From assembly GCA_030833925.1 (NCBI GenBank), contig JAURGE010000020.1:1-43963 (forward strand): a stretch of 43,963 nt of DNA. The letters are read 5' to 3'. Shown in pieces: positions 29,878 to 33,139 of this stretch. This DNA is from Alphaproteobacteria bacterium. Its GTDB lineage: Bacteria; Pseudomonadota; Alphaproteobacteria; Bin95. A program made the translations under genes and the position numbers. How positions within the stretch are numbered: position 1 is the stretch's first letter; each line of letters opens with the position of its first letter. The notes below the pieces were generated by a model. That model saw nothing but the letters and a program-made list of their open reading frames with translations. It had not been told where the DNA came from and searched no databases.

Positions 29878-30576
29878 ATGGTTCATCGAATTGCACTGGT
29901 TGATGACGACCGAAACATCCTCACTTCTGTCTCCATAGCGCTAGAGGCAGAGGGTTTTGGTGTGGATGCATATACCGATGGTGAGCAAGCATTGCGCGGC
30001 ATCAGACAGGTGCCAGTTGATCTTGCCGTGTTGGATATAAAGATGCCTCGCATGGATGGGATGGAGCTCCTTCAAAAGCTAAGAAGTAGGTCGACGGCCC
30101 TTCCTGTTATCTTTTTAACATCCAAAGATGACGAGGTTGACGAAGTCCTGGGACTGCGATTAGGGGCAGATGATTACATTCGTAAACCATTCTCTCAGCG
30201 ATTATTGGTTGAACGCATTCGTACACTATTACGCCGAGTGGAGCTTGGAGAGGAAACTACGCAGGCTGGGGCAGAGCAGTTCACACGAGGCGACTTAGTC
30301 ATGGATGGAGCTCGGCACCTTTGTCTTTGGAAAGGTGGTCAGGTCAATCTAACGGTTACAGAGTTTCTGCTCTTAAAAGCGCTGGCAATTCGGCCTGGTT
30401 TCGTCAAAACACGTGATCAGCTGATGGATGCTGCATACGGGGACAGTATTTACGTAGACGACCGAACAATTGATAGCCATATCAAGCGCCTTCGAAAAAA
30501 GATGAGACAAGCGGACTCCCAATTTAGCCACATCGAGACTTTGTATGGTGTCGGTTATCGATACAAGGCCGAATAA
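29878..30576 (+). CDS. chvI: OmpR-family response regulator, ChvI-like
   Basis: DNA-binding response regulator of 232 residues. Receiver domain with acidic pocket VDDD, phospho-acceptor Asp53 ([15 protein letters not shown]), switch Thr in VIFLTSKDD and Lys in DDYIRKPF; C-terminal winged helix ending in [18 protein letters not shown] and [10 protein letters not shown]. With ChvG it forms the alphaproteobacterial envelope/acid-responsive system. The ATG at 29878 gives the standard N-terminus ([11 protein letters not shown]); the TTG at 29854 is discounted. chvG follows 23 bp downstream. Confidence 0.9.
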
Positions 30577-30599: not shown

Positions 30600-32294
30600 A
30601 TGGCGGGCAAGATGGCGCGGTGGAGGCGATTAAATCAACGTAAGCCCCAACTCCTTCAACGACGGAAGCGCGGATGGTTTTCTCCCTTGGTCCGAGGCAT
30701 GTTGTTGGTCAATTTGGTTGGGCCAGGTATTCTGCTTTTTGGATTGCTTTACCTTGAGCGATACGAAACCCAGTTGATAGAGAGTGAACTTGGAGTTTTA
30801 AAGGCTCAGGCCACATTGGTTGCGGAGGCTCTTGGTGAAAGCGCAGGGATAGAGCAGGGGAGTGACCGCGGAGTAGAGGCATTTCTCCAACCAGAACTTG
30901 CTAAACGTTTGGTTAACCGATTTGCCGGTGCAGACCGTCCGCGAGTAAGAATTTTCACACCAGCATCTGGTCTCTTAGTCGATAGCCGTCGTGTATTGGG
31001 TGGAACAGGGCTCATTCAAATTGAAAACCTTCCTCCTCCAAACTCTGCGGAGGGCTTCGAGGCTTTTTTCAATAAGATTTATGATGGAATAACCCCAATA
31101 TTGGAGAGGTTTATACGAAGGCAACCTCTCTACAGTGAGGGGCCAAATCAGATTGCTTTTGACTATCCTGAAGTTGTTTCAGCATTGTCCGGAAAAATTG
31201 ATGGGGCTGTGCGACGTCTGCCTGATGGACGTCTGATCTTAAGTGCAACGTCGCCAACCAGACGCTTCAAGCAGGTAATTGGCGCCGTAATGCTGTCCCA
31301 GGAGGGTAAGCGAGTAGCAACGGCCGTTAGAGCGGTTCGCTACGACATCCTTCGTGTTTTTGCGATCGCGGTGTGTTTGTCATTTTTAGCTTCTCTTTAT
31401 CTTGGGAGTGCAATTTCTCGACCATTGAGAGCTTTGGCTAATGCCGTTGATAGAAATCGGGGCAGGGGTTCTTTAGATCAGTCCATACCAGACCTATCTT
31501 CCCGTAATGATGAAATTGGTGATCTTTCACTAGCCCTCAGGGAAATGACAGAAGCAATAAAGAATCGCATGACCGCAACGGAACAGTTTGCCGCTGATGT
31601 CGCCCATGAAATTAAGAACCCACTTACATCATTGAAGAGCGCAGTAGAAACCGTTTCTCGCGTTAGTGATGAAAGCCAACGTCAGCGGTTGCTGGAAGTG
31701 ATTCGAAACGATGTTGATCGTCTAGATCGATTAATTAGTGATATTTCCGATGCCTCACGGCTAGACGCTGAAATGTCCAGAGAAGAATTGGAACTCGTTG
31801 ATCTTCTCGAGATGCTAAGGACATTGATGGAGATTGAGACTACTACCCTTGGTGCCCCACAGAATCCGCAACTTCAATTAGATATTTCTGAGTCTTTGGT
31901 GGACGGGGCGCCGGTGAAGGGTGTCGAATTACGGCTTGGTCAGGTTTTCCGAAATTTGATCGCTAATGCCCGCTCTTTCAGCCCAAAAAATGGACGAATT
32001 GATCTGCGATTGTCGCGTGTCGGAAATACTTATGTTGTTGCAATAGAAGATAATGGACCTGGTATCCCAATAGGGAAAGAAGACGCCATCTTTGATAGAT
32101 TTTATTCTGAACGACCAGCAAACGAGGCGTTTGGAGAACACTCAGGACTTGGGCTTTCAATTTCAAGGCAAATTATCGAGGCACATGGAGGCTCTATCAT
32201 CGCTGAAAATCGACGAGGTGCTGATAATGCTGTTATTGGAGCACGTTTCGTCGTGTCCTTGCCGGCAGCACCTGGAGAGTTAAGTCGAAATTAA
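30600..32294 (+). CDS. chvG: sensor histidine kinase, ChvG-like
   Basis: Inner-membrane kinase partner of ChvI, 564 residues. Basic N-terminus, first membrane segment at about residues 33-53 (MLLVNLVGPGILLFGLLYL), a periplasmic domain of about 200 residues with the ChvG-type segments VRIFTPASGLLVDSR and VVSALSGK, second membrane segment (VFAIAVCLSFLASLYLGSAI), HAMP linker, dimerisation domain with His336 in DVAHEIKNPLTSLKSAV, and an ATPase domain (NLIANARSFSP, EDNGPGIP). A GGGGGGAA site decides the ATG at 30600. The next gene in most alphaproteobacteria is hprK; here it is the EIIA gene. Confidence 0.9.
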   Translation: MAGKMARWRRLNQRKPQLLQRRKRGWFSPLVRGMLLVNLVGPGILLFGLLYLERYETQLIESELGVLKAQATLVAEALGESAGIEQGSDRGVEAFLQPELAKRLVNRFAGADRPRVRIFTPASGLLVDSRRVLGGTGLIQIENLPPPNSAEGFEAFFNKIYDGITPILERFIRRQPLYSEGPNQIAFDYPEVVSALSGKIDGAVRRLPDGRLILSATSPTRRFKQVIGAVMLSQEGKRVATAVRAVRYDILRVFAIAVCLSFLASLYLGSAISRPLRALANAVDRNRGRGSLDQSIPDLSSRNDEIGDLSLALREMTEAIKNRMTATEQFAADVAHEIKNPLTSLKSAVETVSRVSDESQRQRLLEVIRNDVDRLDRLISDISDASRLDAEMSREELELVDLLEMLRTLMEIETTTLGAPQNPQLQLDISESLVDGAPVKGVELRLGQVFRNLIANARSFSPKNGRIDLRLSRVGNTYVVAIEDNGPGIPIGKEDAIFDRFYSERPANEAFGEHSGLGLSISRQIIEAHGGSIIAENRRGADNAVIGARFVVSLPAAPGELSRN

Positions 32295-32462
32295 TAGTAT
32301 TGAAATTGAATTAAGCTGGACTGATATTGAAGCAGACTCCTGGTTGGTTCTTCGTGACCAAGATCCCGCTTTGCTTTTTAACTATAAGATCAGAAAAAAA
32401 TTTGTTTTAGGTAACAGCAGATATAACCGCATGGCTCAGGTAAATGAGCTGGAGGGAAGTTT

Positions 32463-32867
32463 ATGATCGGCATCGTAGTCGTCTCTCACGGGGCTTTGGC
32501 AGATGAACTCTTGAAAGCGGTTATTCATGTTGTCGGTGATTTGCCCAACGCAGAAGCAATTGCGATTGGGCCTGAAGATGATCCCGTTAAACGCCGCAAA
32601 GACATTTCCAAAGCAGTTCGCAAAGTGGACTCTGGCAACGGAGTAATCCTGTTAACTGATATGTTTGGCGGCACGCCATCGAATTTGGCTATTTCTATCA
32701 TGGAGGGGCAAAAGGTTGAGGTTATTGCTGGTGTAAATCTCCCTATGCTCGTCAAGCTAGCACAAACTCGTGACAAGTTGCTCCTAAAGGATTGTGCTGC
32801 TCAAGCTGAAGAAGCAGGTAAAAAATATATTTGCATGGCTAGCCGTGTTTTAGGCGACGGCGATTGA
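32463..32867 (+). CDS. PTS EIIA component, mannose-type (ManX-like)
   Basis: Cytoplasmic phosphocarrier of the EIIA-Man family, 134 residues, with the phosphorylatable His9 in VVSHGALADELLKA and the conserved GVILLTDMFGGTPSN and VEVIAGVNLPML. No EIIB or EIIC transporter genes are near, so it is probably part of the regulatory (PTS-Ntr-like) phosphorelay rather than of sugar uptake. GGAGGGAAG lies just before the ATG. The stop overlaps the start of the HPr gene. Confidence 0.92.
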   Translation: MIGIVVVSHGALADELLKAVIHVVGDLPNAEAIAIGPEDDPVKRRKDISKAVRKVDSGNGVILLTDMFGGTPSNLAISIMEGQKVEVIAGVNLPMLVKLAQTRDKLLLKDCAAQAEEAGKKYICMASRVLGDGD

Positions 32868-33139
32868 GTTCGGCTGTGATTAAAGAGACAGTGATCTGTA
32901 ATCCGAAGGGGTTGCATGCTCGACCGGCTGCTAAGGTATCTCGGCTGGTACAGACCTTTGAGGCTGAGGTGTCCATAAAATGTAATGGAGAGGTGGCTCA
33001 AGCCAGCTCTATCATGGACCTTTTGATGTTGGGAGCTGATCTCGGAACCCGCGTGACCATATGCGCAGAAGGTCCCCAAGCGAATGAGGTTGTTGAAGCC
33101 CTGGTGGGCCTGATCAATCAAGGATTTGACGAAATTTAA
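32864..33139 (+). CDS. ptsH: HPr family phosphocarrier protein
   Basis: Relay protein between Enzyme I and EIIA, 91 residues, with the active His18 in NPKGLHARPAAK and the region around the regulatory serine, ASSIMDLLMLGAD. The frame allows a TTG start at 32864, overlapping the EIIA stop (TTGA), or a GTG at 32876; the first is preferred because of the coupling and the length. The possible phosphoserine (Ser48/49) is kept although no hprK is present here. Confidence 0.9.
   Translation: MSSAVIKETVICNPKGLHARPAAKVSRLVQTFEAEVSIKCNGEVAQASSIMDLLMLGADLGTRVTICAEGPQANEVVEALVGLINQGFDEI

Follow-up and report, generated by a model that had tools for sequence, protein, structure and literature searches.

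A probable loss of hprK from the chvIG–EIIA–HPr locus of an alphaproteobacterial genus and an HPr residue that varies with HPr kinase

A genus of Alphaproteobacteria has probably lost hprK, the gene of HPr kinase, from a conserved locus, and its HPr has in most members changed at the residue three positions after the kinase-target serine (serine+3). We consider it likely that the genus lost hprK, that one line within it then lost rapZ, and that the phosphorelay was kept without a serine brake, with the serine of HPr retained and a nearby glycine replaced by aspartate. What is new here is the single-residue marker, which was unexpected; the loss of hprK occurs at a well-known locus.

hprK and rapZ at the chvG–EIIA locus

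The window, that is, the whole stretch of 43,963 nucleotides that was analysed, belongs to a 2.78 Mb MAG (G000; 181 contigs, 90.9% complete). Four other genomes of its genus were compared (G001 and G002, 99% complete; G004, 96%; G003, 83%), together with genomes of the sister genus, g2. On the forward strand of the window, chvI, encoding a response regulator (29881–30576, +; Pfam Response_reg and Trans_reg_C; 88–96% identity in G001, G002 and G004), is followed by chvG, encoding a sensor histidine kinase (30600–32294, +; Pfam HATPase_c, HisKA, Stimulus_sens_1, HAMP and Sensor_TM1). Downstream lie the genes for a mannose-family EIIA (manX/ptsM; 32463–32867, +; Pfam EIIA-man, 3.7e-29), in which His9 is kept, and for HPr/NPr (ptsH/ptsO; 32864–33139, +; Pfam PTS-HPr, 4e-25), in which the catalytic histidine is kept.

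An earlier note on this DNA had pointed out that hprK is missing between chvG and the EIIA and HPr genes. The 168-base gap that it described at 32295–32462 is indeed delimited by the chvG stop codon TAA (32292–32294) and the EIIA start codon ATG at 32463, and it holds neither HprK nor a conserved ORF, confirming the absence. A whole-genome search for an HPr kinase, using PF07475 or a 15-sequence HprK profile, likewise gave no match in this 90.9% complete MAG. PF07475 (HprK) matched in none of the five genus genomes, with every first-look candidate scored, and the best E values of the 15-sequence profile in these genomes were 0.0027 to 0.046, versus 4e-56 and 1e-55 in two g2 genomes.

The relatives carry hprK at the same locus. 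The gene was found in seven of the eight g2 genomes, the contig of the eighth (G011) beginning 445 bases before EIIA, and the locus order in g2 is chvI-chvG-hprK-rapZ-EIIA-HPr. Among 80 named alphaproteobacterial loci, hprK lies near EIIA in 76; three of the other four (L117, L135 and L148) begin at a contig end, and the fourth is L090. Because g2 and the 76 named loci carry hprK at the locus, the polarity is that of a loss, and the objection that relatives might never have had hprK there fails. The L090 locus, from a Hyphomicrobiales MAG, contains EIIA and HPr (with Gly) and no chvG, hprK or rapZ in the 3.7 kb upstream.

In four g2 loci, about 1.4 kb separate chvG from EIIA, with hprK and rapZ inside; in G001 and G002 the interval is shorter, about 1.0 kb, and holds rapZ alone. 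In G000, the 168 bases at 32295–32462 (no strand assigned), in which an HprK signal is absent, appear to be a scar where g2 has both genes. Since rapZ follows hprK in the g2 order, rapZ is missing from G000 too; the earlier description of the usual gene order, kept except for hprK, was thus right on hprK and incomplete on rapZ, which lies between hprK and EIIA in the family. G001 and G002 lack only hprK at the locus, and G000 and G004 lack both genes. RapZ matches were present in G001, G002 and G003, and none was found in G000 or G004, either at the locus or elsewhere in the genome. The loss of hprK is therefore genus-wide in this sample and probably belongs to a two-step process; the simplest order, as we infer from five genomes, would be that hprK was lost first, in the ancestor of the genus, and rapZ afterwards, in the G000/G004 line.

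It is very unlikely that hprK was relocated, or escaped assembly in this MAG, with the serine branch still at work. The incompleteness and fragmentation of G000 would allow for a hidden gene, and one genome of the broader survey described below, G186, was first scored as HprK-negative until part of an hprK turned up at the end of one of its contigs. Against this, the four other genomes of the genus, two of them 99% and one 96% complete, are also without a match. Moreover, chvG and EIIA stand on a single contig in G000, G001, G002 and G004, so the local absence of hprK in these four of the five genomes is not due to a contig break. In addition, four of the five genus HPr proteins carry Asp at serine+3, as discussed below. 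Loss of the gene remains our preferred explanation.

Within the same family, chvG adjoins rapZ in L185 (G006:C207:1-9518), from genus g3. No HprK, EI, HPr or EIIA match was found in this genome (G006), which is a further step of PTS loss; as it has no HPr match, it provides no HPr contrast.

The 168-base gap and a probable rapZ stub

The open frame reported earlier at 32284–32466 exists, with 60 codons and an ATGA overlap with the EIIA start at its end. It was said to have no ATG start; in fact, it includes a late in-frame ATG at 32431, plus two TTG codons. The 60 open codons and the ATGA overlap might be taken to indicate a small gene coupled to EIIA, which we consider extremely improbable. 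The frame is interrupted by three stops in G004, the nearest sister of G000, and a Pfam search at E values up to 1 matched nothing in it; for these reasons it is not a convincing gene. Furthermore, open runs of at least 55 codons in any of the three forward frames occurred in 801 of 20,000 composition shuffles of the gap. The frame was accordingly dismissed as a gene. A ribosome-binding-like site of EIIA, GGAGGG, can be read at 32451–32456 (+). Scanning revealed one weak promoter-like site in the gap (2 in the scanned stretch vs 1.4 in shuffles) and no terminator within 32295–32462.

The earlier note had left it between a decayed remnant and a coincidence. For hprK no resemblance was detected: the best alignment of the gap with HprK fell within the range of shuffled sequences, both for three g2 HprK (49/200) and for fifteen HprK (46/60), and a hprK remnant was rejected. 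For rapZ the suggestion of a remnant holds weakly. The rapZ genes of G001, G002 and G003 end in an ATGA overlap with EIIA, like the gap frame of G000, and the last 12 codons before the overlap (32428–32463, +) resemble the RapZ C-termini of G001 and G002 with a fixed-register BLOSUM score of 25. This score was reached in 0 and 2 of 3000 dinucleotide shuffles that kept the ribosome-binding part, the stretch lengths having been picked after the sequence had been seen. Judged from this similarity, the 12 codons are probably a stub of the rapZ 3' end. When the gap was aligned freely to rapZ over its entire length, the result was not significant (13/200 shuffles), and the whole gap was rejected as a rapZ remnant; only the terminal codons in fixed register pass. 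No rapZ stub was visible in the G004 gap.

HPr at the target serine and serine+3

The HprK-target serine (Ser46 equivalent; alignment residue 48, and helix N-cap in the structure model) is encoded at 33008–33010 (+), in agreement with the earlier remark that HPr keeps the serine region. To place this HPr, 387 alphaproteobacterial genomes with completeness of at least 90% were surveyed. An HprK match was found in at least 255 of them, with at most the best 8 first-look candidates per genome considered, and an HPr match in 285. On the best 8 HprK candidates per genome, 30 genomes had HPr without an HprK match, namely three of the G000 genus and 27 others. Among these 27, G186 is a false negative, with the partial hprK at L298:5224-5472 (G186:C316) and an HPr with Gly. 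Six of the 28 HPr domains in the other HprK-negative genomes sit in large fusion proteins.

Of the 26 single-domain HPr whose genomes lack an HprK match, 24 still have the target serine; this retention therefore says little about kinase control, and was dropped as proof of such control. As to the earlier alternative, that hprK lies elsewhere or the serine branch is lost, loss of hprK is supported and no hprK was found elsewhere in the 90.9% complete MAG; the retained serine is uninformative. Replacements of the serine were seen in two genomes without an HprK match, by Ala in L171 (G359) and by Glu in L170 (G376).

Serine+3 behaves differently from the serine itself. This position is Gly in every one of the 115 HPr assigned to the HprK-bearing group (93 families), versus 4 of the 26 single-domain HPr without an HprK match (18 families), in which Asp (14), Glu (5) and Ser (3) account for the rest. 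The 115 were hand-picked with at least one per family, from 110 of the 255 HprK-positive genomes plus five of g2; they include G011, in which hprK is not visible and which was scored as bearing because its genus, g2, bears hprK. Left out of the 26 were the six large fusion proteins (L159, L164, L165, L166, L169 and L184; Ala or Ser) and L162, the HPr of G186 with its partial hprK (Gly). With these rows included, the HprK-negative count becomes 14 Asp, 6 Ser, 5 Gly, 5 Glu and 3 Ala of 33. Serine+3 was the best discriminator among 81 alignment columns (p 5e-22; next column 4e-12), with a p value that overstates the effect because the rows are not independent. The column of residue V18 of the window's HPr contained Phe in 105 of the 115 HprK-bearing HPr versus 6 of the 26 others.

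The HPr of G000 has Asp at serine+3 (codon 33017–33019, +) in place of the Gly of HprK-bearing HPr, and Asp occurs in four of the five HPr of the genus. Gly was kept without an HprK match in G002, of the same genus, and in G131, G279 and G327; reading 6.5 to 16 kb around each of these HPr genes revealed no hprK. In the 80 named loci, 78 HPr rows have Gly at serine+3, one has Asp and one is a fragment, and four of the 78 Gly rows come from named loci without a visible hprK.

The sole Asp beside an hprK is in L092, from Asticcacaulis sp. AC460. The signature segment of its hprK frame (L092:3429-3830) is deleted in frame; the segment is present in the congeners L094 and L125, the latter with Gly at serine+3 of its HPr. 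The sequence pattern that defined the HprK signature had been drawn too narrowly, as 17 of the 76 named hprK failed it, of which 16 keep the segment with substitutions and L092 alone has it deleted.

The association of Gly loss with kinase loss might instead reflect shared ancestry or a general drift of HPr in reduced genomes, an explanation that we regard as unlikely, with several observations in its favour. Many HprK-negative genomes are small, and serine+3 is not the sole column that differs (the p value of the next is given above). Yet HprK-bearing genomes of 1.1–1.4 Mb keep Gly (e.g. G098, G269, G394, G334, G021, G145 and G226), the change is found next to HprK-bearing relatives within families f1, f13 and f98 (not f118), and within Asticcacaulis it accompanies a broken kinase. 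An EIIA+HPr tree of 83 rows, built with the trait segment left out, bears on both sides. The best tree regardless of support gave 10 edge-disjoint pairs, of which 8 changed in the same direction and 0 in reverse, and other random pairings gave 5 to 8 in the same direction and 0 in reverse; supported branches alone left 3 independent pairs, and the test was not significant. Support for phylogenetic independence of the association is thus weak.

A relay without the serine brake and its known counterparts

The genes of the histidine relay from EI to EIIA-Man are kept in G000. EI, located on another contig, has a frame of 764 residues that includes a GAF domain, and EI, HPr and EIIA-Man matches were present in all five genus genomes. 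G000 accordingly shows the PTS-Ntr relay features of an EI with GAF and the active histidines of HPr and EIIA-Man. In Brucella, NPr is phosphorylated on its serine by HprK, and P~EIIA-Ntr is described in an hprK mutant and not in the wild type (PMC2937029). By analogy, the relay EI -> HPr -> EIIA-Man in G000 presumably runs without the serine brake, and phosphate may flow more freely.

In the structure model of the G000 HPr (mean pLDDT 96.4), residues 49–55 form a helix and serine 48 stands just before it; since the helix begins right after the serine, serine 48 is modelled as the N-cap and Asp 51 as N3. Ser-x-x-Asp/Glu is the classical capping box. 1KKL, listed by its HPr chain, is the HPr–HprK complex. 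Our reading is that Gly may be kept for kinase docking and that a stabilising acid may take over once the kinase is gone.

The proposed sequence of events is as follows. The genus would have lost hprK, encoding the short alphaproteobacterial HPr kinase, from a conserved chvIG-hprK-rapZ-EIIA-HPr locus. The later loss of rapZ in the G000/G004 line would have left the 168-base scar with its probable 12-codon stub. The PEP-driven relay from EI with its GAF domain through HPr to EIIA-Man would have been retained with the serine brake gone. The serine would then stay as a helix cap while Gly gave way to Asp, possibly because the docking constraint was lost and an S-x-x-D/E capping box gained. The best reading is thus a decay of the kinase-recognition site of HPr after a lineage-specific loss of the serine brake. 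We regard as evenly balanced the broader proposal that HprK holds Gly in place and that, once the kinase is lost or inactivated, the residue becomes mostly Asp or Glu, forming an ordinary capping box, so that a lost serine switch would be difficult to regain.

If this is true, one HPr residue would show from sequence whether a bacterium retains serine control of the PTS, and the earlier question on the serine branch would become testable in this way. Such a marker of a functional HprK would offer both a cheap sequence test and a direct mutational test of HprK substrate recognition. The regulatory PTS of alphaproteobacteria reports the carbon and nitrogen state, with HprK thought to be a brake, and natural lineages with the relay and without the brake show what the relay does alone. 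Titles and abstract openings yielded no paper on Gly at serine+3; as subscription journals lay mostly outside that search, we make no claim to a first description.

A chvI-chvG (bvrR-bvrS)-hprK-ptsM-ptsO locus is described in reports on Brucella, Sinorhizobium and Agrobacterium (PMC2937029, PMC13104625 and PMC3665714). G000 resembles these genera in gene order and in its relay proteins, HPr/NPr, EIIA-Man and an EI with GAF encoded elsewhere, and differs from their locus in the absence of hprK. It also lacks the rapZ that stands beside EIIA in 24 of the 80 named alphaproteobacterial loci. The other HprK-negative alphaproteobacteria belong to different families; L158 (family f111) and L170 (f50) have EIIA and HPr directly after chvG, like G000, whereas several others keep rapZ beside EIIA or HPr. 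In L179 and L180 (G123 and G210, one genus without an HprK match), HPr comes after rapZ, and no EIIA match separates the two. Beyond this class, HprK is absent from most gammaproteobacteria, according to one report (PMC2405797). As a system, the relay of G000 can also be likened to that of enterobacteria. There, too, NPr and HPr operate in a relay without HprK.
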